Shown here: positions 1,677 through 20,455 of the stretch, piece after piece
Layout of the letters: each line of letters opens with the position of its first letter
Numbering within the stretch: position 1 is the stretch's first letter
Source: a virus
Virus record (IMG/VR): IMGVR_UViG_3300030061_002410
Coordinates: 1 to 22,772 of that record
Reading direction: 5' to 3' (one strand)
Length of the DNA stretch: 22,772 nt
Program-made: the position numbers and the translations under genes
The notes under the pieces: model-generated
Databases searched by the model: none
What the model saw: the letters and a program-made list of their open reading frames with translations, nothing else
What the model was told of the DNA's origin: nothing

Positions 1677-3236
1677 ATGGAATTTAATAACCCAAGTCAA
1701 TTGGTCAAGCATCTTAACTTTGGTGATGATGCTAATGACAAAATAATGAGTGGTGTAGATCAACTAGCTAAAGCTGTTAAATCTACACTAGGTGCTTCTG
1801 GTAAATGCGTTATATATGAAGATGCAACAGGAAGACCGGTGATTACAAAAGATGGTGTAACCGTTGCGGAAAGCGTAGTCTTATATGATCCGGTCGAAAA
1901 TATAGGTGCAACACTTATAAAGGAAGCAGCTAAAAACACGGTGAAAGAAGCTGGAGACGGTACCACAACGGCTATCGTCTTAGCTGAATCACTACTAAAA
2001 GAAGTAAATAACAGCGATAATGTACGAGAAATTAAAGAAGGTATTAACTCAGGACTTGAAAAAGTTAATAAATACCTTTCTAAACACTCCAAAGCAGTAT
2101 CTGGCGATAATCTTAAATACGTATCAACAATAAGTTGTAACAATGATAGTGAATTAGGTGGTATTATAGCCGATGCTTACACGAAAGTAGGTAAAGATGG
2201 TGTAGTATTGATGGAGGAAAGTGAGACGGATGAAACTTATACAGACATCGTTGAAGGTGTACAGTTAGAAAATGGCTTAACATCGCCATATTTTGCTACA
2301 GACACTGAAAAACAAAAATGTGAATTAGAAAATCCGCTAATTTTAATAGTTTCTAGTGAAATTCCTAGTGTTAGGAAGATACAAAACATACTAGAACATG
2401 TAATTAAGAATAATAGATCGCTTTTAATAGTGGCTACTGTTGCTCAGCAGGTAAAATCTGCGCTTTTAATGAATAAAGTTAAAGGTAATATAAAAGTAAA
2501 CATTATAAATCCACCAGGATTTGGCCCAACTAAGCGAGATACTATAGATGATTTAGCTATTTTAACAGGGGCTAAGGTAATAAATGAAGAATTAGGTGAC
2601 GATTTGGATCTAATTCAACCAGATTGTCTTGGTGAAGCTAAATTTTCAATAACTGACGATAAAAATACAGTTATAACTACTTATAATGTACAAGAAGACA
2701 TAGAGGGTAGGGTAAAAGAGGTTAAAAAGCTCATAAAAAATGAAAAAAATGGCTTTTTAAGAAAAAAATTAGAAAATAGACTTGCTATGTTATGCGGTTC
2801 TGTTGGTATTATACGTGTTGGTGCTAATTCTAAGGTAGAATTAAAAGAAAAGAAGGATAGAGTTGAAGATGCAATATACGCAGTTAAAGCCGCTTTGCAA
2901 GAAGGTATTGTCCCAGGTGGCGGTATCGCTCTTTTAAATGCTGCAAATAACATAAAGTTTGATAATATTGGGGAGAATATACTAGCTACAGCAATTCAAG
3001 CACCATTTAAAACCATTATGGCAAATGCTGGTATTGAAAACTACGATACGCCTAAAGATTTAGGTGTTGGGTACAATGTAATTTCCGGTAAACTAGTTGA
3101 TATGGTTGACTCTGGTATCGTAGACCCCGTCTTAGTTACAAAGACAGCACTAAAAAATGCAGTTAGTGTTGCAACTACTATATTTTCTGCAGATTGTGTA
3201 ATTAATAATATAAGAGTAGAAAATGCGAGCAGTTAG
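1677..3236 (+). CDS. groEL: phage-encoded group I chaperonin GroEL
   Basis: At 519 residues this is a near full-length GroEL (bacterial about 548). It folds proteins in an ATP-driven double-ring cage with GroES. Equatorial ATPase signatures are intact: TKDGVTV with Asp59 (E. coli Asp52), GDGTTT at 93-98 with Asp94 (E. coli Asp87), and RVEDA with Asp398 at the same number as in E. coli, followed by GIVPGGGIALL. The apical domain keeps SPYF near 203-206, aligning with the E. coli Tyr203/Phe204 substrate- and GroES-binding edge. Oddities are an N-terminal extension of about 7 residues and a C-terminus ending in VENASS, without the Gly-Gly-Met tail. groES follows with a 14-nt overlap, the reverse of the usual bacterial groES-groEL order. 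Identification is firm; chaperonin activity is inferred from the residues. Confidence 0.97.
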   Translation: MEFNNPSQLVKHLNFGDDANDKIMSGVDQLAKAVKSTLGASGKCVIYEDATGRPVITKDGVTVAESVVLYDPVENIGATLIKEAAKNTVKEAGDGTTTAIVLAESLLKEVNNSDNVREIKEGINSGLEKVNKYLSKHSKAVSGDNLKYVSTISCNNDSELGGIIADAYTKVGKDGVVLMEESETDETYTDIVEGVQLENGLTSPYFATDTEKQKCELENPLILIVSSEIPSVRKIQNILEHVIKNNRSLLIVATVAQQVKSALLMNKVKGNIKVNIINPPGFGPTKRDTIDDLAILTGAKVINEELGDDLDLIQPDCLGEAKFSITDDKNTVITTYNVQEDIEGRVKEVKKLIKNEKNGFLRKKLENRLAMLCGSVGIIRVGANSKVELKEKKDRVEDAIYAVKAALQEGIVPGGGIALLNAANNIKFDNIGENILATAIQAPFKTIMANAGIENYDTPKDLGVGYNVISGKLVDMVDSGIVDPVLVTKTALKNAVSVATTIFSADCVINNIRVENASS

Positions 3237-3489
3237 TTTATATATAGTAGTAGAAAACATAAAGCTAAAACCTAAAACAATAGGTGGCTTAGAAATATCT
3301 GATAACATAGACAGTGACAATAGATATTTAAAAGGAAAAGTTATTAGTAAAGGTGATCTTTGTCCTCCAGATGAGGTTTTAAAAGTAGACGATATTGTCT
3401 ATTATGACAAACATGCTGGCCACGAGATAACATATAATAACAAACAATACTATGTCATGACTATTAAAGACATAGTTTTAGTAGAATGA
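3223..3489 (+). CDS. groES: phage-encoded co-chaperonin GroES
   Basis: An 88-residue Cpn10 (E. coli 97). The N-terminal strand SLYIVVENIKLKPK is followed by a mobile-loop-like segment with IGGLEI at 20-25, matching the AGGIVL hydrophobic tripeptide region that docks onto GroEL. The C-terminal half, KVDDIVYYDKHAGHEITYNN and then YYVMTIKDIVLVE, aligns well with E. coli KVGDIVIFNDGYG and VLIMSESDILAIVE. The ATG lies inside groEL (14-nt overlap) and the stop overlaps the next ATG (ATGA), so all three genes are probably translationally coupled. Having both lid and cage suggests a self-contained phage folding machine, although mixing with host subunits is possible. Confidence 0.93.
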   Translation: MRAVSLYIVVENIKLKPKTIGGLEISDNIDSDNRYLKGKVISKGDLCPPDEVLKVDDIVYYDKHAGHEITYNNKQYYVMTIKDIVLVE

Positions 3490-3926
3490 GATTAAGTGCA
3501 TCCGATCTCAGAGAATTAAATATATTTAAGTATTACAGGCTCGTTCGTAAATGGGCTTGTAAAACTTATAATTTAAAGGATGCAGATTTAGAATTATTAA
3601 TATACTTAGACTGTAAAGGTAAATTTACACGTCAAGAATTCATAGATGGTGTATACACTATGTCTTGGGATAAAAACCGCTGGGAACGTTTAAAACGCGA
3701 AGGCTGGATAGAGACATGGAGACACCGTAACCGCACTTCAATAAAATATAGCATTTTTAAGACATCATTTAAATGCTCACAACTAATCACAAGAATATAT
3801 AGAATCCTATTAGCAGAGGAAGACTTACCTACATCAGAACGTAGTATTTTTTATAAAAATAATTCGTATACTGATAAGGTGTTTAATAAGGCTATAGATG
3901 ACATGTTAAAAGATAATACAAGATAA
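3486..3926 (+). CDS. winged-helix-like (MarR-type) protein
   Basis: A 146-residue protein starting at the ATG in an ATGA overlap with groES. Residues about 25-105 have the pattern of a winged helix: a helix with DADLELLIYLDCKGKFT, a second with WDKNRWERLKREGWIE, then a basic wing (RHRNRTSIKYSI) and a further helix (CSQLITRIYRILL). LELLIYL followed by a Lys/Arg-rich turn is typical of MarR-like folds. The C-terminal 40 residues, with SYTDKVFNKAI, look helical. It might be a late-gene regulator or a structural DNA-binding protein. Its position in a coupled groEL-groES cassette is unusual and could mean it regulates that cassette. The fold is inferred from sequence pattern only. Confidence 0.8.
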   Translation: MRLSASDLRELNIFKYYRLVRKWACKTYNLKDADLELLIYLDCKGKFTRQEFIDGVYTMSWDKNRWERLKREGWIETWRHRNRTSIKYSIFKTSFKCSQLITRIYRILLAEEDLPTSERSIFYKNNSYTDKVFNKAIDDMLKDNTR

Positions 3927-3927
3927 T

Positions 3928-5346
3928 ATGGCAAAACCTATTACAAATAAAGTAAAAACAGGCCAAATACCTGTAATTAAGAAAGACTTAGACAGTGGTG
4001 TCATAGCTGAGGCTAATAATGACGGTACTATATATTTAGACAAGTCTGTTAAAAATGACAGCCCTCTTGCAAAAGAAGCTATAGCACACGAAATGGTGCA
4101 TATGGATCAAATGGCTAGAGGTGATCTAAACTACAATGACGATAAGGTTTTTTGGAAGGGTAAAGAATATGACCGCGACGATATGAACGAGGGGTCAAAA
4201 CAATTACCATGGGAAAAAGAAGCTTACGATAAAACTAAAAATATGAAAAAATCCCCAAACAAATACTCTCTTAGTAAAGGTGCAATAAGGACCAATAGAG
4301 ATGTAGTTACTACTAAATTAAGAGCTGATGCTGATAAAACAGCAGCTATAGGCGCAGCCGTAGGTACGGTTACTAGTAAAATACCTAGTTTTGACGACTA
4401 TGAGAATCAAAAAGATAATGATGTTGATGTAGGTACAGATGATCTAGTAACAGATTCTGGTGCTAACATGAACTTAAAAAACAAAAATAAATCAGCTATA
4501 AAGATGAAATCAACTCCTATTACACAAAAAGCTAAATCACCTGCGAAACTCGCACCGTTAGCCGCTATGGCTGGTAAAGCACTTATTGGTGCTGCCGCTA
4601 ATAAAGTGGTTGATTCTGCTATGAAAATGAAATCTCCTTTACATGTTGAAACAACAGAAACCAGAGAGTTTAAAGGTAACTTAGGTGATGAAACTGGAAC
4701 GTTTACAGAAACAAAAACAACTAAGAAAAGTAAAGAAAAGAAAGAAAGTGTTAAAAACTTTGCTAATTCTTGTTATAACGAAGATGGTAGTAAAAAAGCT
4801 GAAGGAACAATTGTAGGTGATATAAAATGTAGCTGGAAAGATGATGAAGATTTTGATCCAGAAAGTGAGTATGAAACAAAAGAAGAAACTATATATGATA
4901 CAGCTTTTCAAAACGAAAAAGATAAAGTTGTAACACCAGGCGATCCAGGTAGACCGAATATGGGGTATTACGAGTCTCTAGATAGCAAAATGGGTGCTGG
5001 TGTAAGAGGTAGATCTAACAAAAGAGTAAATAGAAAAGCTAACAGCGCTGGCGCTAAGTTTGACAGAATGGATGGTAGAGGTAAAACACCACTTAATCCT
5101 AAGACTGGTGAGCCTTACACTAGAGAAGAATATATTAAAAACGTATCTGGTGCTTTTGAAATACCAGATGCTTTTGTAGGTAAAAGAGAAAAAAGTACAC
5201 CTGGATCTGAAAAAGAAGTTATAAAAGGGGCAGACCCAGATAAACAAACTTATAAAATAGTAGATGGCGAAGCTGTCGCTGTTATGAACAAAAATAATAA
5301 AAATAAAAGTGCTTTCAAAATGAAAGGTTGGAAAGCATATAATTAA
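3928..5346 (+). CDS. HExxH metallopeptidase-like protein with long Lys-rich tail
   Basis: A 472-residue protein in two parts. Residues about 20-105 form a compact domain with HEMVH at 54-58 and PWEKEAY at 94-100. A Glu in that second motif (96 or 98) is a plausible third zinc ligand, as in gluzincin-like peptidases. The rest is low-complexity, Lys/Asp/Glu-rich and probably disordered, with repeated short motifs: MKKSP (106-110), NKSAIKMKSTP (187-197), KAKSPAK (201-207), MKMKSPL (232-238) and a C-terminal NKSAFKMKG (459-467). Residues about 205-232 (LAPLAAMAGKALIGAAANKV) could be an amphipathic or membrane-active helix. No signal peptide. It sits between the chaperonin cassette and a second Lys-rich protein with related motifs. 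It may be a virion-packaged or assembly peptidase; activity is inferred from motifs only. Confidence 0.75.
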   Translation: MAKPITNKVKTGQIPVIKKDLDSGVIAEANNDGTIYLDKSVKNDSPLAKEAIAHEMVHMDQMARGDLNYNDDKVFWKGKEYDRDDMNEGSKQLPWEKEAYDKTKNMKKSPNKYSLSKGAIRTNRDVVTTKLRADADKTAAIGAAVGTVTSKIPSFDDYENQKDNDVDVGTDDLVTDSGANMNLKNKNKSAIKMKSTPITQKAKSPAKLAPLAAMAGKALIGAAANKVVDSAMKMKSPLHVETTETREFKGNLGDETGTFTETKTTKKSKEKKESVKNFANSCYNEDGSKKAEGTIVGDIKCSWKDDEDFDPESEYETKEETIYDTAFQNEKDKVVTPGDPGRPNMGYYESLDSKMGAGVRGRSNKRVNRKANSAGAKFDRMDGRGKTPLNPKTGEPYTREEYIKNVSGAFEIPDAFVGKREKSTPGSEKEVIKGADPDKQTYKIVDGEAVAVMNKNNKNKSAFKMKGWKAYN

Positions 5347-5372
5347 TAAACAAGGACTAAACAATTAAAACA

Positions 5373-6110
5373 ATGGGAACAAAAGGAAACAAAGCCTCTA
5401 ACATTTATCAAGTGTTAAAAGGTGCAGGTGCTTGGCAGAGTAAAGACTCGCAAGGACCTATGATTAAAGGTGTTGGTATTAAATCACCACTAAATATGAA
5501 AGCTTCACCGGCAAAAATAATGCCTTCTCCAAAGGTGACTGAAAAAATAGATAAACCAGTAAAGAAAACTTCATACTCAGAAGCTTACAAAAAGCGTGAT
5601 ATGAAAACTTATGGTAATTTAACAGAAGCTGAATATACAGCAGAAGCTAAAAGACAAAATAAGTCTAAAAAAGAAACTGGTAAGTGGGATGCGCCTAAAA
5701 AGCAAATGGAGTCTAAAGAAAATAAGAAGAAGGACGATCCAAAAGATACTACTACTACTACGACTACAACAACTACTGATCCTAAGAAGGAGGAAAATGT
5801 TAAGTCTACTGAAGTTACTGTTAAGTCTAGAAAACAACTTAGAAATGAAAGAAGAGCTAAGAGGTTATCTGATAAAGCTAAAGATAAAGGTAGTTTAACA
5901 AAAGGTCAACAAAAAAGATTAGCTATTGCTGAAGAGAAAGCTTCTGGTAAGTCTGGTAAAGATGCTAGAGATGCTGCTAAGAAAAAGCTAGCACCAAAAG
6001 AAGAGGGTGATTCGCCTGCTAAAAAAGCTTTAGTTGGTAAGCAAAAGAACTTACCTGAGGACTTAAAAGCTAAAATTAAAGCTTCACCTGCTAAAAAATA
6101 CAAAAAATAA
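5373..6110 (+). CDS. Lys-rich disordered protein with poly-Thr linker
   Basis: 245 residues, strongly basic and low-complexity. The N-terminal part has IKSPLNMKASPAK (36-48) and MPSPK, related to the KMKSP motifs of the upstream protein. Residues 66-110 include TSYSEAYKKRDMKTYGN and AEAKRQNKSKKETGKWDAP, a probable helical segment. A run of ten Thr (126-135) separates this from a Lys/Arg-rich C-terminal half (RKQLRNERRAKRLSDKAK) that ends with ASPAKKYKK. The leader CAATTAAA precedes the ATG with no Shine-Dalgarno. It could be a DNA- or scaffold-binding virion protein. The shared terminal motifs suggest that both Lys-rich proteins are recognised by the same partner. No enzymatic domain seen. 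Confidence 0.8.
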   Translation: MGTKGNKASNIYQVLKGAGAWQSKDSQGPMIKGVGIKSPLNMKASPAKIMPSPKVTEKIDKPVKKTSYSEAYKKRDMKTYGNLTEAEYTAEAKRQNKSKKETGKWDAPKKQMESKENKKKDDPKDTTTTTTTTTTDPKKEENVKSTEVTVKSRKQLRNERRAKRLSDKAKDKGSLTKGQQKRLAIAEEKASGKSGKDARDAAKKKLAPKEEGDSPAKKALVGKQKNLPEDLKAKIKASPAKKYKK

Positions 6111-6518
6111 ATGTCAAAAATACTAGCTAAACTTTTCGGCGGTGCTGGAGGCAGTGTTGTCGAAAAGATAAGCGGTGTTGTAGATAAGTTCGTAAGAACT
6201 AAAGATGAGAAAGCAGCTTTTGAAAAAGAGATGACGCAAATTCTCATTGAAGCAGAAGCCGCTATGCAAAAAAACGTAACCGAAAGATGGAAAGCAGATC
6301 TAGAACATGGTAACTGGCTTACGCGAAGCGTACGTCCATTAGTCCTTGTTTTTTTAATAGTCAGTACTGTGATCATGGTTTTCATAGATAGTGGTTCAAT
6401 AGCATTTGAAGTAGATGAAAAATGGACGGATTTACTTCAATTAGTGCTTATGACTACGATCGGTGCCTATTTTGGCGGACGAAGCGTTGAAAAATTTAAC
6501 AAAATAAAAAACAAATGA
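6111..6518 (+). CDS. holin-like membrane protein (GTA_holin_3TM type)
   Basis: 135 residues. The N-terminal half is a charged helix (about 15-65), followed by NWLTRSVRPL (68-77), a hydrophobic segment at about 76-92 (PLVLVFLIVSTVIMVFI), and a second at about 107-123 (DLLQLVLMTTIGAYFGG) ending in GGRSVEK. The N-W-x-x-R-x-x-R-P and GAYFGGRSxEK signatures are typical of the GTA_holin_3TM family, whose members are predicted to permeabilise the inner membrane. No endolysin lies beside it in this window. In some phages this family sits among structural genes, so a virion or assembly role is an alternative. It starts one base after the upstream stop and ends one base before the next gene. Confidence 0.8.
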   Translation: MSKILAKLFGGAGGSVVEKISGVVDKFVRTKDEKAAFEKEMTQILIEAEAAMQKNVTERWKADLEHGNWLTRSVRPLVLVFLIVSTVIMVFIDSGSIAFEVDEKWTDLLQLVLMTTIGAYFGGRSVEKFNKIKNK

Positions 6519-11900: not shown

Positions 11901-13644
11901 ATTTGCAGGTGCTGATAATATAAAATTAGTTGCAGGTGGAAAAAATTATTTACACGCACATGATAATGGTAATTTATATTTATACGGTAATAATAGCACA
12001 GCGTTAACATTAGACGGTTCACAAAACGCAACTTTCGCAAATGATATTTTAACTGATGCAGATAGTTCAGCAGATATAGGAAAAACTGGTACACGTTGGG
12101 CTAATCTTTGGGTAGATAATATTAACGGAAGTACACCGGTAACTGGTGGTCCTTTTTTACCTTTAGTTGCTGGTTCAGGTTATCCTTTAACTGGAAGTCT
12201 TTATTTTAATAATTCTGTAAGATCTATAGTATGGCCTCACACATCTGGTCAAAGCTCTAGTAGATCATGGGCGTTTATAGGTGAACAAGGTTCTTATGGT
12301 AAGTTTGAATTAAGAAGATCTGATGCTGCCGACGATACACCAGATACTACTGTATTAGAATTTGATTTAAATGGTAAAGCAACTTTTGCTAATGATGTAA
12401 GATTAGGTAGTTATACAGGTGCTAATACAGGTGGTGGCGGACAGACTGCGTATGGAGCGTTAAGTATATTTGAAAACTCTGGTACAGCTGCTTTATTTTT
12501 AGGTGTTAAAGATGCTAGTTATGCTAATAGAGGTTGGTCATTTAAAGCAACAGAAGTAGGTGTTAACTCTAAATTAGAATTAATAGAGCATGGGTTATCA
12601 GGAACTAGATTAACAATTACTAGCGGTGGTGACGTTGGTATAGGATATGGATCTCCTGGTTATAAATTAGAGGTTGCTGAAGATGTAGATGGTACGGCAG
12701 ACTTATTAAGGTTAAGAAATTCTGATTCTACATATGCTCAAACTTGGGCGTTCCAATCAGATACAGCTAAAGATTTAGTAATTACAGGTTCAAGTGGTGC
12801 GGGTGGATTTAAAGTTGTTCCAGGATCAAGAGGATCAACATTTACAGGTAATGTAACAATAACAGGTGATCTAACAGTTGGAGGAACTAACACTATATTA
12901 AACACACAAACAGTAGAAGTTGAAGATAATATACTACAACTTAACACAACACAAGGTTCACCAGACACAGCTACGGCTACTACATCTGGTATATCTGTTT
13001 ATAGAGGCAATGGTGTTACGCAAGCAAGTTTAATATTTGATGACGCAGACGATACATGGGATTTAACAAATAATTTTAAAGTTGATGGTAAAATAATTCC
13101 AAATGCTCATATTGAACTTCCTTATGGTGGTGAACTTAGAACATTAGATTCTAATGGTGCTGTAAGAACTATAGCTAGAGCAAACAGTAATAAATTACAA
13201 TACGGTTGGAGTTACAACGGTGCAGTTGAGTTTATGGGTGGTGGTAGTTACTCACCTAAAATAACTATAAATACAGATGGTACAACAACTTTTGCAAATG
13301 CTATTGATGTTAATGGAAGTGTAACAGTACAAAGTGGTTTAGCTGCTTATTATTCACAAGCCACGTCTGCAACAACAACAACAACGATTGCTAGTGTAAA
13401 CAAAACTACATACGGAGCTGCATTTTTTGACTATGTTGCTTATAAAGGTACTAATATTAGAGCTGGTACTATAACAGCGGTTAATGATGGAACGAATGTA
13501 GAGTATAATGAAACATCTACTACATCTTTAGGTGATACGTCTGATATAACATTTGAGGTTGTTATAGCTAGTACTCAAATGAGTCTACAAGCAACCACTA
13601 CATCAAGCACGTGGACAATTAAAACAATGGTAAGAGCATTATAA
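8944..13644 (+). CDS. giant tail fibre protein (1566 aa)
   Basis: The longest protein here. It is built from repeated fibre modules: LALGHNSPGAGLHVKG near 75-90, many N-A-T-F-A-G/N turns, VGIGTDDPAFNLEVF near 272-286, RWANIWVDNINGGTPV at 725-740 and RWANLWVDNINGSTPV at 1051-1066, VGIGYGSPGYKLEVA near 1231-1245, and at about 1303-1395 a GNVTITGDLTVGGTN...VEVEDNILQLN module shared with the 549-aa fibre. The C-terminal 110 residues (FFDYVAYKGTNIRAGTITA, ISS-free, ending WTIKTMVRAL) form a conserved marine-phage tip domain; there is no S74 chaperone. The leader carries CAATTAAA. The stop overlaps the next ATG (TAATG). Role: host-surface adhesin or long fibre. Confidence 0.93.
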   Translation: MAQQFLTGVKITAGDENTLYLNTGSTGQETAIFYQVNGSYKFEQRVGTNWELYNYTTSNWDFHLQGSTGYLALGHNSPGAGLHVKGTTNLASRFIFTKDLSTDKILFGGADHDNFDTFVGSSSNHSFTITQNGAAAITVDTSKHSTFAGNVTLSSTGPLLHLANTTSTTGKTWRFSSAANGKFYITQEGVVDAVTLDHTTGNATFAGGVTVEGGTLELGKADTSSGHINAKELMTFNIDTDNDDTNRYFAWYKNSSSGSGTELVRIKEDGTVGIGTDDPAFNLEVFSAANSTTAIGIGNSGTAASRLYLDASNGDYSGSDYMWIGQNNDLSGEIFMAQNAGSFKIKTQPGGVSTTQFEIAQNGNATFTGKISSKHIKYCNKSISNSYERIYFAAANTSQLATAVRLTGTTHGSSHVANFTADILVNHYQDVFITSKSGAYTQVTLKVSSNNNGDYTLFVKSASSSASTYYFKIEAISDNVDLTTLPSSTASSNTTHEHTTVFGSNATGTGGTLEHKHGGKLGMSSGYASGKFAVMSNNVHGSYDFYNNGTSYFNGGVTIDASLNQTSGASSNFSGDITIKKPVDGDFTGLRIMNQKTYGSGTGINETARLVLGIAESGQADSNREGFVIETYTSTETDSSNINTEFKVRDGGAIGTAVKFHGNDKSVQFYSHIKINSGKALRLYNAAGSGWAEMAFNESLNMLQIQRGLVASGDSSLNLGTSSVRWANIWVDNINGGTPVSGSGADNYLALWNGTGAIDHDTDFYVDSSTLYTNALRITSDNAFYRDTINSITGGESWNASNGWHRIIEISGGSGRGKCHFLIQTGGGSGTPCRVEAIVNTAWSNSNSTLTILHNSYPNFITDIRVVRNATTNKSYVDIKGSGEDYVDVTILPDGSTSAAIVNFTNVNSLPSNDTMEIHQTLTNMIMSMSSGQGSGNGYDGNAGTGQKPFQVKYDGSIFAEQGTFEGTIYTNQYLTHLDDGNTYLEFAGADNIKLVAGGKNYLHAHDNGNLYLYGNNSTALTLDGSQNATFANDILTDADSSADIGKTGTRWANLWVDNINGSTPVTGGPFLPLVAGSGYPLTGSLYFNNSVRSIVWPHTSGQSSSRSWAFIGEQGSYGKFELRRSDAADDTPDTTVLEFDLNGKATFANDVRLGSYTGANTGGGGQTAYGALSIFENSGTAALFLGVKDASYANRGWSFKATEVGVNSKLELIEHGLSGTRLTITSGGDVGIGYGSPGYKLEVAEDVDGTADLLRLRNSDSTYAQTWAFQSDTAKDLVITGSSGAGGFKVVPGSRGSTFTGNVTITGDLTVGGTNTILNTQTVEVEDNILQLNTTQGSPDTATATTSGISVYRGNGVTQASLIFDDADDTWDLTNNFKVDGKIIPNAHIELPYGGELRTLDSNGAVRTIARANSNKLQYGWSYNGAVEFMGGGSYSPKITINTDGTTTFANAIDVNGSVTVQSGLAAYYSQATSATTTTTIASVNKTTYGAAFFDYVAYKGTNIRAGTITAVNDGTNVEYNETSTTSLGDTSDITFEVVIASTQMSLQATTTSSTWTIKTMVRAL

Positions 13645-14957
13645 TGGGAATAGCAAGAGGAACAAATATAGTAACAAACGGTTTGATATATGGGCATGAC
13701 ACTGGTCATAATCCAAGTATAACTGGTTTAGATAGTCAACCTCATCATAATGATTATAGGTTTTACAAAGGCGTACCAGATACAAATGTAATTTCTTCTG
13801 GTATACCAGGTTATTTTGGATCAGGTGGAACGACTTTGTATCAAAAAACATTAAATGGGTTTTCATCAGCATCTGGCGTGTTTCAAAGAAATTATGTAAC
13901 TAACCCAGCTCAAGCTAATACTGGTACGTATAACAATAACGCAGGTTTATTTCATAGTGGACTTTCATTTAATAGTCTTTCTGCTAACACAGAATACATA
14001 ATGATTAGTTTTGATTTTTATATGATAACACCATATGTTAGACACTCAAGCTCAGGTACTGGTTTAAATGGTTATCTAGGTGTAACATATACTGATGGAT
14101 CAGGTGGTAATCATGGTTGGAATACTTCATTAGCTGGTAACGCTGGTGATGACTGGAATAACAATAGTGCATATGTTGGTAAGTGGAGGAAAATAGCTTT
14201 AATAGCTGATTTAACAGATAGTAAAACACCTAGTTCTATTAACGCTATGTATATATATAACGATAGAACTATTCAAGGAGAAGGTATATTTACAAACTTT
14301 GTTATAACTGAACATACAACACTACCTACATCACCTGTACAATGGATTGCTCAAAACGGAAGTAGAAGTAATACTCAGTGTTTAAATGATTTAGCAAGTT
14401 CATCGATTATAGATGTATCAAACGTTTCTTTTGATTCAACTGGTCAACCAACTTTTGATGGAACAAGTGATTATTTTACTACATCACATCTTTCTACACC
14501 AAGTTCAACAAAATTAACATTTGAATCAATTTTTAAATTTAATGGTAGCTTAGATAGTAATGATAGAAAAGTGTTTCACTGGGATAAAACAGGTTCATCT
14601 AACGCTGTTGCTCAAATAAGAAAAGGAACAAATAACGGTAGATTAATGTATCAACATCACAACTCTCAATGGTACACATTATCTGTTGATGACGTTGTTA
14701 CAGCAAATGATTTTATACATATAGTAGTTGTTCATAGTGGTACAACAGCAACTATGTATAAAAATGGTACTCAGGTAGGTACTACAACCGTGGGCTCTTT
14801 AAATTATACTAACGCCGCTGAAATACTAGTGGGATATAGAGCTAATGCTGAGTATTGGAAAGGTGATATACCTGTGTTAAAAGTATATGATGTTGCGCTT
14901 TCTACAACTCAAATAACACAAAACTATAACGCATATAAAAACAGATTTAATTTATAA
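13644..14957 (+). CDS. LamG-like adhesin, paralogue 1 (437 aa)
   Basis: Begins MGIARGTNIVTNGLIYGHDT, a start shared in pattern with the genes at 15294 and 15899. The middle (about 80-235) is a jelly-roll-like region. From about 255 to the end is a concanavalin/LamG-type domain: FDSTGQPTFDGTSDYF, then LTFESIFKFNG, IHIVVVHSGTTATMYKNGTQ, a final strand with VLKVYDVALSTTQITQ, and the tail NYNAYKNRFNL. LamG domains in phage appendages usually bind glycans. Translation is probably coupled to the giant fibre through the TAATG overlap. Assignment is by fold pattern and family resemblance, not by identified ligand residues. Confidence 0.85.
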   Translation: MGIARGTNIVTNGLIYGHDTGHNPSITGLDSQPHHNDYRFYKGVPDTNVISSGIPGYFGSGGTTLYQKTLNGFSSASGVFQRNYVTNPAQANTGTYNNNAGLFHSGLSFNSLSANTEYIMISFDFYMITPYVRHSSSGTGLNGYLGVTYTDGSGGNHGWNTSLAGNAGDDWNNNSAYVGKWRKIALIADLTDSKTPSSINAMYIYNDRTIQGEGIFTNFVITEHTTLPTSPVQWIAQNGSRSNTQCLNDLASSSIIDVSNVSFDSTGQPTFDGTSDYFTTSHLSTPSSTKLTFESIFKFNGSLDSNDRKVFHWDKTGSSNAVAQIRKGTNNGRLMYQHHNSQWYTLSVDDVVTANDFIHIVVVHSGTTATMYKNGTQVGTTTVGSLNYTNAAEILVGYRANAEYWKGDIPVLKVYDVALSTTQITQNYNAYKNRFNL

Positions 14958-14959
14958 TT

Positions 14960-15292
14960 ATGGCATTTGAAAATAGAAGATGGTTGGTACTACCAACTGA
15001 CAAAATAGACGATATAAACTTTGATCAGGTTTTACAATCAAACAAAGATTCTTTAATTAAATCTTTAGACGAAAGTGAAACTTTTGTTAAGTATGATGTA
15101 ACTATATTAGAAGAAGACGTTGTTAATGAATATACAGATGTGGAAACAAACGAAGAAGTATCACATACTATAAAAGCTGGAACGTACGGTAGGCCAGATG
15201 TGTATAGCACAGATTACAAAGAATATAATCATGAAGATATGTTAGCTTTATTAGCTACAGATAAATGGACTGATAACACAGAACAAGAATAA
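14960..15292 (+). CDS. small hypothetical tail-locus protein (110 aa)
   Basis: Starts MAFENRRWLVLPTDKIDDIN two bases after the previous stop and ends one base before the next start. It is acidic, with FDQVLQSNKDSLIKSLDESE probably helical, a strand-rich middle (FVKYDVTILEEDV) and an acidic helix at the end (HEDMLALLATDKW). It has no low-complexity fibre repeats, signal peptide or membrane helix. It interrupts three LamG paralogues, so it may act on them, for example as a fibre-assembly partner or a cap. I do not recognise a characterised family. Confidence 0.82.
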   Translation: MAFENRRWLVLPTDKIDDINFDQVLQSNKDSLIKSLDESETFVKYDVTILEEDVVNEYTDVETNEEVSHTIKAGTYGRPDVYSTDYKEYNHEDMLALLATDKWTDNTEQE

Positions 15293-15293
15293 A

Positions 15294-15893
15294 ATGGGAG
15301 CAATAACAGGACCAAACATAGTAACATTAGGGTTAGTATTATCTTTAGATGCTGGTAGCACTAGATCTTATCCAGGTAGTGGAACAGTCTGGAAAGATTT
15401 AAGTGGAAATGGTTTTGATTTTACTATGGACAGTAGTGGTATAGCTGCTAATAGCTCTGAAGGCTCTTTTACATTAACGGGTGGCGGAGCTAGTTATAAT
15501 GATATTATTACACAATCACAAGACTGTACATTTGTTTTTTGGATGAGAACAAATGATAGTACAGCGCTTTTTTGGCAAGGCCAAACTACTAGTTATTACT
15601 TAGGCGCATATCATGGTGGTAATAAAGAATATCATAATCTTTTTGGTAGCCCACAGTTTTTTAAAAATACAGTTGACACAGCTAATATATACGATAACAT
15701 TAGAGATAATCAGTGGCACATGCTTGAGTTTAAAAATGTAAGCATGCTTGGTCACACGCAACAACATTTTAATCAATATGGTAGTTTTGAGTTTCAAGCT
15801 ACAAGCGCTGTTGGTGCAATTATGGTATATAACAGAAACCTTACTGCAGCTGAAAGCGCTCAAAATTATAACGCACTTAAAAATAGATTTTAA
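15294..15893 (+). CDS. LamG-like adhesin, paralogue 2 (199 aa, short)
   Basis: Begins MGAITGPNIVTLGLVLSLDA and is essentially a single LamG-like domain: WKDLSGNGFDFTMDSSG, FVFWMRTNDSTALFW, NQWHMLEFKNVS, AIMVYNRNLTAAESA, and the family tail NYNALKNRF. It lacks the N-terminal insertion (about 200 residues) of the other two paralogues, so it is either the ancestral short form or a deletion derivative. D-A-G-S-T-R-S-Y-P after the first strand is common in phage LamG proteins. Likely a glycan-binding appendage domain; ligand unknown. Confidence 0.87.
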   Translation: MGAITGPNIVTLGLVLSLDAGSTRSYPGSGTVWKDLSGNGFDFTMDSSGIAANSSEGSFTLTGGGASYNDIITQSQDCTFVFWMRTNDSTALFWQGQTTSYYLGAYHGGNKEYHNLFGSPQFFKNTVDTANIYDNIRDNQWHMLEFKNVSMLGHTQQHFNQYGSFEFQATSAVGAIMVYNRNLTAAESAQNYNALKNRF

Positions 15894-15898
15894 TAGAC

Positions 15899-17116
15899 AT
15901 GTACACAGGACCTAAATTAATAACGGAATCTTTAGCATTTGGATTTGACACTGGTTATGGTGTTGCAGATAAGCATACATCTACTATATACTATAAAGGT
16001 GAACCAGCTACAAATTTACAATCAGGCACTCAAACGTCTGGTATAATTCAAGGTATGTCTGGTGTTAGCATAGCCCATGTTGGTGAAGAAGATGGTTATC
16101 AAAAGTACTCTATGAACGGTACTTTTAGTGGAGGAAGTTATCCATATATAACATATTTAAATCAACAAAGTTTTACAGGTGGTGTTAAATATTCCACACA
16201 AGCTAAAGTAAAAACAAATGTTCCTGATAAATTTAATTATTTTGGTTCTAATGGTGTTAGTTATGTAAATCAACCTATGGATCATAGTGGTACGTTAAGT
16301 AGTACGCTTCAAGATGATGGTTGTTATTTAGTTAAAAGAGAAGGTTTTGCATATACTTCTACAACGTCTCAACCTGGTTATTTATGGACAAATCCAATTA
16401 ATAATACGACCTTTAGTTCATCACAAGATTTTATTTATATAAAAGATTTTCAAATAGAACAAAACGATCATTGTACACCTTATACACCAACATCTAGAGG
16501 TAATAATAATAGTTTAATTGATTTAACAAAAACTAGAGATATTCAGATAGACAACGCGTCATTCGACTCAACATGTCAACCTGTGTTAGACGGAACTGGT
16601 GATGATATTGATTTGGGTGCTGATGTTGATTTTGCTGGTGATAGAGAAGAGTGGACAGTAGAAAGTGTTGTTAAATATAACACAGTGGCTGCTGGTTACA
16701 ATAATACTACATCTCCAGCTAACTTTATCGGCTCTGATAGTATTCAGCATAGTAGCTGGTATTGGAGTGTGTTGGGTAGTAAACTTGCTATTTGGAATAT
16801 AAGTCCAGGAGTTTGGAAATATGGCTCAACAACGCTTGCTGCAAATACTTGGTACCATGTAGTTTTAACTGTTGGGCCTGGTGGAACAAGTTATCAAATG
16901 TATTTAAATGGTGTAGCAGAAGGTGGTGATCACGCTAGCTACTCGTTTAACGCTGATTACTCAGGTTTAAGAGTTAGATATTTTGGTAGAGGAAACTCAG
17001 GTAACAGAAGAAACGTTGATGGAAACATAGCAGTAACAAGAATATACAAAAAAAGATTAACAGCAGATGAAGTAAAACAAAACTTTAACGCATATAAAGA
17101 AAGATTTAATATATAA
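15899..17116 (+). CDS. LamG-like adhesin, paralogue 3 (405 aa)
   Basis: Begins MYTGPKLITESLAFGFDTGY. An N-terminal jelly-roll-like region (about 30-200) includes YKGEPATNLQSGTQTSG, comparable to YKGVPDTNVISSG in paralogue 1. The LamG-like domain starts near 222 with FDSTCQPVLDGTGDDIDLG and continues with WTVESVVKYN, WYHVVLTVGPGGTSYQMYLN and VTRIYKKRLTADEVKQ, ending NFNAYKERFNI. The W-Y-H-V-V-L-T-V strand with Y-L-N-G is a good LamG_3 signature. It precedes the S74-terminated fibre by 21 nt. Role: probable glycan-binding appendage protein. Confidence 0.87.
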   Translation: MYTGPKLITESLAFGFDTGYGVADKHTSTIYYKGEPATNLQSGTQTSGIIQGMSGVSIAHVGEEDGYQKYSMNGTFSGGSYPYITYLNQQSFTGGVKYSTQAKVKTNVPDKFNYFGSNGVSYVNQPMDHSGTLSSTLQDDGCYLVKREGFAYTSTTSQPGYLWTNPINNTTFSSSQDFIYIKDFQIEQNDHCTPYTPTSRGNNNSLIDLTKTRDIQIDNASFDSTCQPVLDGTGDDIDLGADVDFAGDREEWTVESVVKYNTVAAGYNNTTSPANFIGSDSIQHSSWYWSVLGSKLAIWNISPGVWKYGSTTLAANTWYHVVLTVGPGGTSYQMYLNGVAEGGDHASYSFNADYSGLRVRYFGRGNSGNRRNVDGNIAVTRIYKKRLTADEVKQNFNAYKERFNI

Positions 17117-17137: not shown

Positions 17138-20100
17138 ATGGCAAATGAATTTAAAGTAAGAAAAGGTCTCATAGTAGACGGATCAACACAAGTTCCAGCA
17201 TTAGTTGGAACAGTCGTCGATGTTCAAGGAACAGCAGGACAGCTATTTTCTGTAACAGATAGTTTGACAGGAGACTTGTTTTCTGTGTCAGACGTTTCTG
17301 GTGTACCTATATTTAATATAAATTCATCTGGTGAAATTAATATTGGTGATGACGATAAGTTGTACTTTGGTGCGTCTAATGATCTTCAAATATATCATGA
17401 CGGTAGTAACAGTTATATAGCTGAAGTAGGATCAGGTGGGTTAGTATTTAAATCAAATCACTATTATTTTCAAGATACTTCAGGTAATACAGCATTCAAC
17501 GTAAGTGCACCTGCAGGTGATGCAACTTTTGAAGGTAGTATAACTTCTGGTGGTAATATTATTTCTAACGATACTTTTTATTTACAAAATTCTAGTGGTA
17601 AAAAATGGCAATATCTTTTTGACGGAGATAATTCTCAATTTAGACACTACAATGGTTCATCATGGGGTACACATGTATTAAAGCTTTTGGCTAGTAGTGG
17701 TATTAATGTAACAGGTGAATACACTACGTCAGCAGACTATGGTAACTCTGGATTTATACAAACATGGAGAAACACTAATACAGGCGGTGGTGCTTACGTA
17801 GAACATATTATTGGAAATAGCGCTTCTAGTGAACTTCGTATAGGTCATGCACCTAATTATGGCTCTGCTGACTGGAATGCATCATGGGTATATGCTGTTG
17901 GTAAACCGTTGTTTTTAAAATCAAGTAATGGTAACGTTGTTATATACGCAGGTGGCGCGGGTGCATCTGATGAGGTAGCAATATTTGATACTAGTCAAAA
18001 TACAAGGTTTAAAGGTGATGTTCAAATTGATGGTGGGATAACAAGTGCTTTAAATAATAGTATATTAATAAGTTACAGTAGTAATGACGGAAATAACAAT
18101 GACGCTGGATTAAAAATAATGAATGACAGCAACGATTGGGGTGCTTATATTAGAAAAACTAGTAGTGGTAATTATGGTTTAAGAATAGATTCAGGCGGAG
18201 CAAGTGCTCTTAGTATATACTCAACAACTGGAGGTAGTACAAAAACTTTTGGTGTTGATGGTTCTAACGGAAATACAGGTATTGCAGGTATTGTAACAAC
18301 AGATAAAATATTTGTTGCTAAAGGTCAAAACGTAACACACGGAACAAGTCAAATTAAAATAAGTCAAGAAAATTCAACTAAAAGTCAAATTAGATTTTAT
18401 GGTGCTGATACTTCAACGGCAGGAATTTTAGAATTTACAGGTTCATCTTCTGATGGTTCTGCTGGTGGTGTAAGATTAACAATCAATGCTGATGGTTCAT
18501 CAACTTTTTCAGGTGCTGCAACTTATCATAAAATTAAAACATACTATGATGGTGATTATACAAGTGGATTTAAATTTTCAGATTATAATGGTGGTATTTG
18601 GTATGATGCTGGTGCAGATGATTTAACTCTTAATGGTGGTCATGCTAATAGTCAAATTCTTTTTAATTCAGGTGGAGCGCTTGCTTTAACTTTAAATGCT
18701 AGCCAATTAGCAACTTTTGAAGGAACTATACTTATTGATGGTGTTTCTAATTATACAGGATTAGAAGTAAAAGGAGCGGGTGCATCTAGACCATCAGTAC
18801 AATTTTCAAATGCAAATCAAGGTGATTTAGGTCAGATTTATGGAACGGAAAGTAATGCTTTAGTTATTGCAACTGGTACTGGTAGCAACACTGCTGTTAC
18901 TTTAAATTCAAATCAAACAGTTAATTTTCACAATTCAGTATATTTTAGTGGCTCTAACGTTGGATTAATTTCATGGGGAAGTATGGGCGGTGGAACTGGT
19001 TTTGGTATTAGAGGTGAAAGTGGTAGAGCATTAAGTCTGGGTTCTAATGGGGCATGGGATAAACTTATTATTGATACAAGTGGCAATACAACTTTTGCAG
19101 GTAGCTTAACCATGAGCGCTAGTGGTAATGTATTTTCAGATAGTATATTTCAGTTTTTAAATACAGGTAGTGGAGCTCAATATGGTAAATTTAGAGGTAT
19201 ACAATTGTCTACCTCATATAGTGGTACAATACCTAGCCAAGGTATATTATTTGGTACAGATACAAATTTATATAGATCAGCAGCTAACACTTTAAAAACA
19301 GATGATGATTTTGTAATTAATAGCTCATCAGCATCTGGTAGCACGGTGTTAGATGTACAAGGTTCTGAAGGTCAATTATTCTCAGTTACAAATAGTTTAA
19401 GTGGTGATTTATTTTCAGTATCAGATGTATCAGGTGTACCTATATTTAATGTTAATTCTAGTGGCGCAATAAGTGTTGACGGTTATATTGAAGGTAACTT
19501 AGAAATAAAATCAACCGGATCTGTAGGTTTAACTATCAATGCTGATACAGATAATGCTACAGAAAGTGATATTCCGTTTTTATCATTTAAAATGGATGGT
19601 GCTATGGAAAGATTACGTATTGGTGTTGATGCTAGTAATAACCCGTACATAAGCACAGACAGTGATAGTAATCTACCTTTAAAAATATTAACAGGTACCA
19701 ATAACGGTAGTTGTGCTACTTTTAATGCTGATAAAACTACAACATTTCATGGTAATATACATACAGACGTTGTAAATAACGGTGCTAATTCGCATAATAT
19801 GATATACAGAACAGGTGGAAAAACACTTGTTGGTGGTGGTTCTTCTGCAAATAAACTTTATGTAGATGATACCGGTAATGTTACTGTTGGTGGTAATAGC
19901 AACGCTACTACTAACGCATATGGAGGTACCGGGGTTAAATCACTTAACATACAAGCACCTGATTATCCTTTAATAGCTTTCTACGCTGGATCAACACCAG
20001 CTTTAAGAACGACTATGATAAGTTATTCTAATAGCACACTGTTCACTCACAATCATGCTACTGCAAAATATACATTTCAAAATAGCACATCGAATACAGG

Positions 20101-20455
20101 TGAATTAAGCGGAACAGGAACATTCACAGTTAAAGGCGATGTTATAGCTTATGGATCTCCATCAGATATATCGTTAAAAGAAAATATAAAACCAATTGAA
20201 TCAGCTTTAGATAAGGTAAATAAACTAAAAGGTGTAACATTTGATTGGAAAGAGTCTGATAGTATATTAGATATAAAAGAAGATATAGGATTTATTGCTC
20301 AAGATGTACAAGAGGTATTACCAGAGCTTGTAAGAGAAAATGATAATGGTAAATTATCACTTAGAGACAAAGGTATAGTGCCTGTATTAGTTGAAGCTAT
20401 AAAAGAATTAAAAGAAGAAATTGAACAACTTAAAAAACAAATAAATAATGGCTAA
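17138..20455 (+). CDS. tail spike/fibre with C-terminal S74 intramolecular chaperone (1105 aa)
   Basis: The N-terminus EFKVRKGLIVDGS leads into a DVQG...SVSDVSGVPIFN segment (25-67) that is repeated at 736-778. The shaft is Gly/Ser/Thr/Asn-rich with LYFGASNDLQIYHDGSNSYI and many TTFAG turns. The last 97 residues are a Peptidase_S74 chaperone: SDISLKENIKP with Ser1009 and Lys1014 in the same Ser-x4-Lys spacing as the autocleavage dyad of endosialidase chaperones, then GVTFDWK, IGFIAQDVQEVLPELV, and a terminal coiled coil (EAIKELKEEIEQLKKQ). S74 domains trimerise, guide beta-helix folding and then cut themselves off. The mature fibre would end near residue 1008. A Shine-Dalgarno-like AAAGG precedes the ATG. 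Confidence 0.94.
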   Translation: MANEFKVRKGLIVDGSTQVPALVGTVVDVQGTAGQLFSVTDSLTGDLFSVSDVSGVPIFNINSSGEINIGDDDKLYFGASNDLQIYHDGSNSYIAEVGSGGLVFKSNHYYFQDTSGNTAFNVSAPAGDATFEGSITSGGNIISNDTFYLQNSSGKKWQYLFDGDNSQFRHYNGSSWGTHVLKLLASSGINVTGEYTTSADYGNSGFIQTWRNTNTGGGAYVEHIIGNSASSELRIGHAPNYGSADWNASWVYAVGKPLFLKSSNGNVVIYAGGAGASDEVAIFDTSQNTRFKGDVQIDGGITSALNNSILISYSSNDGNNNDAGLKIMNDSNDWGAYIRKTSSGNYGLRIDSGGASALSIYSTTGGSTKTFGVDGSNGNTGIAGIVTTDKIFVAKGQNVTHGTSQIKISQENSTKSQIRFYGADTSTAGILEFTGSSSDGSAGGVRLTINADGSSTFSGAATYHKIKTYYDGDYTSGFKFSDYNGGIWYDAGADDLTLNGGHANSQILFNSGGALALTLNASQLATFEGTILIDGVSNYTGLEVKGAGASRPSVQFSNANQGDLGQIYGTESNALVIATGTGSNTAVTLNSNQTVNFHNSVYFSGSNVGLISWGSMGGGTGFGIRGESGRALSLGSNGAWDKLIIDTSGNTTFAGSLTMSASGNVFSDSIFQFLNTGSGAQYGKFRGIQLSTSYSGTIPSQGILFGTDTNLYRSAANTLKTDDDFVINSSSASGSTVLDVQGSEGQLFSVTNSLSGDLFSVSDVSGVPIFNVNSSGAISVDGYIEGNLEIKSTGSVGLTINADTDNATESDIPFLSFKMDGAMERLRIGVDASNNPYISTDSDSNLPLKILTGTNNGSCATFNADKTTTFHGNIHTDVVNNGANSHNMIYRTGGKTLVGGGSSANKLYVDDTGNVTVGGNSNATTNAYGGTGVKSLNIQAPDYPLIAFYAGSTPALRTTMISYSNSTLFTHNHATAKYTFQNSTSNTGELSGTGTFTVKGDVIAYGSPSDISLKENIKPIESALDKVNKLKGVTFDWKESDSILDIKEDIGFIAQDVQEVLPELVRENDNGKLSLRDKGIVPVLVEAIKELKEEIEQLKKQINNG

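Follow-up and report, generated by a model that had tools for sequence, protein, structure and literature searches.

A modular peptide tag, found mainly at protein ends in uncultured marine podovirus-like phages, as a candidate capsid-targeting label

In bacteriophage T4, the capsid targeting sequence (CTS) is removed by the gp21 (S77) protease at [LI]xE. The internal proteins of T4 are a diverse set with only this capsid targeting sequence in common (PMC3012670). The arrangement typical of T4, a short conserved terminal peptide on unrelated small proteins, is also found here, on 136 distinct proteins among the matches listed, and is represented in the window, the whole 22,772-nucleotide stretch analysed (positions 1 to 22,772 of IMG/VR record IMGVR_UViG_3300030061_002410). 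Judged from motif comparison, the motifs repeated in two neighbouring proteins of this window, P1 and P2, are instances of one modular tag that is mostly terminal, MAFKMKG-(about 6-11 residues)-S[PA][ALFIM]K. Its users are uncultured marine podovirus-like phages that form a large clade.

The record holding the window is a 25 kb virus record, and a 61 kb record (G001) encodes identical P1 and P2 proteins. The MCP family of the window phage also occurs in ctfjg026 (49%), Maribacter phage Panino (45%), the Flavobacterium elemo phages (43%) and Cellulophaga phages phi38:1/Calle (39-40%), with a weaker match in phi18:3. In relatives, the P1/P2 cassette is flanked on one side by phage GroEL/GroES and on the other by genes toward terminase, portal, scaffold and capsid protein, and it also houses holin- and endolysin-like genes. 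The conserved upstream border of the cassette in the window is the phage's own GroEL (1677-3236) and GroES (3223-3489) pair (1677-3489, plus strand), which is kept beside the cassette in many relatives. Directly after GroES lies the gene for a 146 aa protein (3486-3926; SASDLRE...YYRLVRKWACK), likewise kept in many relatives and with no more than a weak match to a PHROG of unknown function. A holin-like protein (GTA_holin_3TM/phrog_3427; 6111-6518, plus strand) is encoded immediately downstream of P2. Elsewhere in the window, three proteins of 437, 199 and 405 aa (13644-17116) have a C-terminal sequence in common (QNYNAYKNRF-like) and look like paralogous tail or adhesin proteins, and a large fibre-like protein (17138-20455) ends in a Peptidase_S74 intramolecular chaperone (Pfam E 2.7e-20). 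A block of ejection-like genes follows the tail genes of this phage.

P1 (472 aa; 3928-5346; all P1 and P2 coordinates are on the plus strand) combines an HExxH metallopeptidase-like domain with a long Lys-rich tail that carries the motifs. Residues 1-108 (3928-4251) were assigned as a minigluzincin-like domain on the basis of conservation, AlphaFold modelling and PDB hits, and include HEMVH (4087-4101) and LPWEKEAYDK (4204-4233). H54, E55, H58, W95 and E96 are invariant in an alignment of 39 sequences, a set picked in part by these very peptides, so that conservation there is partly by construction. The gluzincin feature of HExxH plus a distal Glu is present, with E96 as the putative zinc ligand. 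The domain was modelled alone because Foldseek with the full P1 model was weak; this model (pLDDT 81) gave as leading PDB hits the minigluzincins selecase, abylysin and jannalysin together with IrrE-type proteins, at probabilities up to 0.97, a TM of about 0.4 and non-significant E values of at least 0.11. Sequence searches of the domain against PDB returned chance hits only. A candidate eCIS_core (PF13699) match was rejected at 12.8 bits, below the Pfam gathering cut-off of 22. In other phages, the P1-type domain usually makes up a whole protein of some 100 residues, beginning with MAFKLN.. or MAFKMKG... P1 and its long orthologues are without the N-terminal tag and end in SAFKMKGW, APFKMKGF or PFKMGG; within a single domain family the label is thus found at one end or the other.

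The motif strings quoted in the sequence-only reading were all found in the P1 and P2 reading frames. In P1, MKKSP (4243-4257) marks the end of the peptidase domain, and is followed by SAIKMKSTP (4492-4518), KAKSPAK (4528-4548) and a module, SPAKLAPLAAMAGKALIGAAANKVVDSAMKMKSPLH (4537-4644), in which a hydrophobic helix-like stretch is flanked by two SPx motifs, with MKMKSPLH at 4621-4644. The C-terminal tag of P1, SAFKMKGW (5308-5331), is N-terminal in other HExxH proteins. The motif stretches (residues 157-237 and 425-472) have pLDDT below 50 in the AlphaFold model and are presumably disordered. Across seven orthologues the tail is fast-evolving with few conserved columns, among them the core (M/L)K(S/A)xPITxK of SAIKMKSTP, kept in nearly all seven, SPL and the C-terminal FKM(K/G)G. 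P2 (245 aa; 5373-6110) is 23% Lys with a net charge of +35, and homologues were found in 5 of the 14 other records searched. Its N-terminal module, SNIYQVLK...GVGIKSPLNMKASPAK (5397-5516), is kept in orthologues, and in G011 another body bears a related cap (MGKSIYEKIK...SPAK). IKSPLN and MKASPAK lie at 5478-5516. The C-terminal module, GDSPAKKALVGKQKNLPEDLKAKIKASPAKK (6006-6098; SPAKKALVGKQKNLPEDLKAKIKASPAKK), comes with GDSPAKK (from 6006) and KASPAKKYKK (6078-6107), and a near-copy of it is N-terminal in an L009 protein and C-terminal in L017 and L020.

Motif expectation in both proteins was derived from 20,000 within-protein shuffles. In P1, three occurrences each of KMK[SAG] (0.15 expected, p 0.0006), KSP (0.18 expected, p 0.0004) and [MIF]K..SP (0.07 expected, p 0.0001) were counted, and in P2 three of SPAK (0.02 expected) and four of [SA]P[AL][KHRN] (0.10 expected), numbers reached in none of the 20,000 shuffles. 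The sequence-only reading had proposed a spaced linear motif with a function, frequently located at protein termini, to be abandoned if its frequency followed from Lys/Ser/Pro composition or if homologues did not conserve it. Neither is the case, because the motifs exceed the shuffled expectation and their columns are kept in the seven P1 orthologues; the proposal is strongly supported and reaches far beyond P1 and P2.

Related phages, where that reading had suggested looking for the motif at protein ends, do carry it. M[AGP]FKMKG has at least 147 matches in IMG/VR, compared with 17 stretches in a codon-permuted control and 62 in 257 Gb of bacterial genomes; at plausible gene starts there are at least 125 open frames in IMG/VR, 1 in the control and 2 in the bacterial genomes, with a spurious look to all three of the latter. 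The motif is also met at C-termini and a few residues inside protein starts. The 136 distinct tagged proteins among the matches listed have little in common except the tag, being small (median 119 aa), Lys-rich and basic (median net charge +10) with unrelated bodies. Most of those listed lack a Pfam domain, DUF6321 recurs, and 15 are HExxH proteins. The tag is often trailed by S-[PA]-[ALFIM]-K. In these 136 proteins among the matches listed, SP[ALFIM]K is found 35 times downstream of the tag (2.0 expected) and SPxR not at all, and S[PA][ALFIM][KQN] falls within residues 8-35 of 51 tagged proteins (1.4 expected). In the non-redundant ORFs of HExxH loci, SP[ALFIM]K was counted 49 times against 5.7 expected (SPxK 8.6-fold), while reversed, TPxK (1.6-fold), APxK, GPxK and SPxR (1.2-fold) forms all stay at 1.2-1.6 times expectation. 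All four Gly codons are used in the DNA encoding the tag, with 39 distinct 21-mers among the 136; selection acts on the peptide, because the Gly codons vary freely and C-terminal copies exist. The tag is real, peptide-level, virus-specific, clade-restricted and exchangeable between bodies.

Among the tagged proteins of L204, L252, L262, L280 and L311, some have Met/Lys-rich repeats (SAMKMKKEAAMKMKK-like) shortly behind the tag. A 336 aa protein of G003 (17953-18963, minus strand; locus L091) has N-terminal MYVQKNNPFQKKGPLKM, contains a IPGIGEVADGINA stretch recalling pretoxin regions and has a C-terminal HITPTGQRGTAGHW region, and is possibly a tagged toxin-like effector. No tagged cassette was found in the relatives phi38:1, phi18:3, elemoE, Panino and ctfjg026, nor was any cultured phage carrying the tag found. 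A literature search limited to non-subscription papers returned no description of the tag or FKMKG motif, and for SPLK in phages it returned only one, unrelated, paper.

Exchange of the tag is seen directly in bodies that are 76-89% identical between two phages but follow MAFKMKG... in the first and a MAY[VI]Q..NPF-like start in the second; the junction is sharp. This second tag, MAY[VI]Q-x-NNPF, gave 47 hits and its permuted control none; its carriers are mostly DUF6321-type proteins, plus several other bodies. Modules within P1 move as well: the SPAKLAP... module is mostly absent from a 78% identical orthologue and has counterparts in the ejection-like protein and in a protein of L309 that bears the tag at its N-terminus. 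An untagged DUF6321 body is found between the scaffolding and capsid genes of pelagiphage HTVC142P; this protein, gp28 (L424, 392-637), is DUF6321-like, small and Cys/Arg-rich, and untagged bodies of its type are widespread in cyanophages and pelagiphages. AG-345-E15, reached through the DUF6321 body, was set aside as lying outside the tagged clade.

Both tag halves turn up again in proteins that probably belong to the procapsid. The MCP family of the window phage is encoded in 38 of 40 tagged contigs, and in this lineage SPxK falls within the first 40 residues of 12 of 34 ejection-like proteins (MKKYQGSSPLKFIP...), about a third, compared with 1 of 1237 proteins of other conserved families, the ejection-like and scaffold-like roles being assigned by gene order. 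FK-phi-K falls within the last 18 residues of 69 of 126 scaffold-like proteins (DFKVKIGRNPNKIS, SFKIRKKN) and of 1 of 1145 others, a resemblance to the tag that is short (F-K-hydrophobic-K) and was spotted after the fact. The scaffold ends have V, I or F at the position where tags show M or L, and the scaffold of the window phage carries FK-phi-K at its C-terminus only. Sequence comparison thus points to an FK-phi-K element of the scaffold-like protein and an SPxK element of the ejection-like protein that are shared with the tag. These are expected to be the two conserved proteins inside the procapsid. Of their position-equivalents in phi18:3, the ejection-like gp120 was detected in virions by MS and the scaffold-like gp103 was not, which fits the expectation for a scaffold.

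We propose, with a probability of roughly 0.5, that the tag is a capsid-targeting label that addresses unrelated small basic proteins into the assembling procapsid, in the manner of the T4 CTS but without homology to it. The tag would dock, probably, on the coat protein or scaffold core of the assembling procapsid, and the tagged proteins would be packaged in the head and could accompany the DNA on ejection. On this reading two of the internal head proteins would be P2 and P1, the latter a minigluzincin-like peptidase tagged at its C-terminus. We infer presence in the virion, a docking partner and delivery into the host. Among the functions put forward in the sequence-only reading, a capsid-packaging tag or scaffold-docking peptide fits best, because the tag halves recur in the scaffold and ejection protein and hardly elsewhere among the conserved families tested; a maturation-protease site is possible. 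Counting against packaging are the presence of holin and endolysin genes next to the cassette, a setting that would suit lysis or a late host-directed role too, the brevity and post hoc nature of the scaffold likeness, and the restriction of SPxK to a minority of ejection-like proteins. A wider proposal, made more tentatively, is that exchangeable address labels, comprising at least two N-terminal tag types and a C-terminal form, load the virion with a rapidly changing set of small effectors for delivery, a metallopeptidase among them; the labels would represent a second, independently evolved capsid-targeting code.

Proteolytic processing is the main rival because an HExxH peptidase co-occurs with the tag, and we consider it unlikely. 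The tag, especially SPxK and the hydrophobic residue after it, would here be the cleavage or recognition site of the co-encoded peptidase; as the head matures, this enzyme would process scaffold, ejection protein and cargo. Of the tagged records with this MCP, 33 of 38 encode HExxH proteins, compared with none of 5 untagged relatives (Fisher p 3e-4, a value that ignores shared ancestry), and so do 7 of 7 records above 60 kb of an MCP-selected set; the peptidase is itself a tagged protein, as a core protease could be, and an S78 prohead protease was not found in any of 11 records, with a positive control. An excess of M (8.7-fold) is seen behind SPxK, as is one of P (7-fold) at the third following position, but the residues that come after SPxK vary (K, M, L, F, I, A), and known prohead-protease site types (T4/phiKZ) are not enriched behind the tag: [LI]xE occurs in residues 8-35 of 29 tagged proteins, with 22.6 +- 4.1 expected. 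Tags at either end suit docking better than propeptide removal, and FK-phi-like scaffold ends are present in peptidase-less relatives too, as in elemo, whose scaffold begins MFKMK and ends TKFKLV.

Less likely still is that these late proteins dock away from the procapsid, on some other assembly of phage or host such as a membrane or lysis complex or a phage factory. The position of the cassette between GroEL/GroES and the terminase-side genes, interspersed with holin and endolysin genes, and the hydrophobic helix-like modules behind some SPxK motifs agree with such a role, which leaves unexplained why, among conserved families, FK-phi-K ends are nearly confined to the scaffold and N-terminal SPxK to the ejection-like protein. 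The S/T-P-x-K/R motifs of histone H1 tails are minor-groove motifs, and SPxK-rich Lys tails might similarly bind DNA, condensing the phage genome or targeting the host nucleoid, in keeping with the Lys content and charge of P2 and with the median charge of the tagged proteins among the matches listed. This we rate as improbable: T and R should then be tolerated, but Thr-Pro and SPxR forms are near chance and SPxR is absent behind the tag, and the invariant MAFKMKG is left unexplained. A nucleotide element in translation initiation or regulation, or an artefact of composition, is very improbable as the source of the repeated start. An A-rich stretch upstream and a preference for GCA as the second codon speak for such a source, but synonymous variation at Gly and the C-terminal and internal copies disfavour an RNA-level element at the start codon; composition was ruled out by the within-protein shuffles and the codon-permuted scans, which gave 1 match at a plausible gene start for the first tag and 0 matches for the second.

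Irrespective of mechanism, a virus-specific terminal motif on more than 100 unrelated proteins offers a powerful entry point to phage genes that lack characterisation. Should the tag direct packaging, hundreds of genes that are now hypothetical in abundant marine phages would be classed at once as virion-internal and probably delivered, foreign proteins could be loaded into phage heads, and the cargo docking site in this capsid lineage would become testable. If a second targeting code does exist, virion cargo would be recognisable by sequence alone.

Compared with known systems, the SPAKK strings in Lys-rich disordered sequence resemble histone H1-type S/T-P-x-K/R tails, but Ser and Lys are specifically favoured here and Thr and Arg are not. 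The HExxH domain of about 100 residues has a predicted fold that may resemble that of the minigluzincins, whereas it lacks a sequence match or a significant Foldseek score and is fused here to motif tails or tags. Like the podovirus-like crAss001, whose virion contains internal ejected proteins (cargo gp45, gp46 and RNA polymerase subunits; PMC10172136), the window phage has an ejection-like block that by gene order may be comparable to the cargo genes; the available part of that account notes no shared short tag (PMC10172136), while many extra small proteins would be labelled here. The closest likeness in organisation is to the CTS of the T4 internal proteins and Alt, also a short terminal peptide on diverse small basic proteins, several per genome, with bodies swapped while the tag stays (PMC3012670, PMC5694885). 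The present tag shows no sequence relation to the CTS, may be C-terminal, is bipartite with SPxK, lacks enrichment of T4- or phiKZ-type cleavage sites, and belongs to a podovirus-like lineage that encodes GroEL/ES and an HExxH peptidase and in which packaging is putative. By sequence and cleavage-site features it lies outside the T4 CTS family, yet it plausibly works like one of its members.
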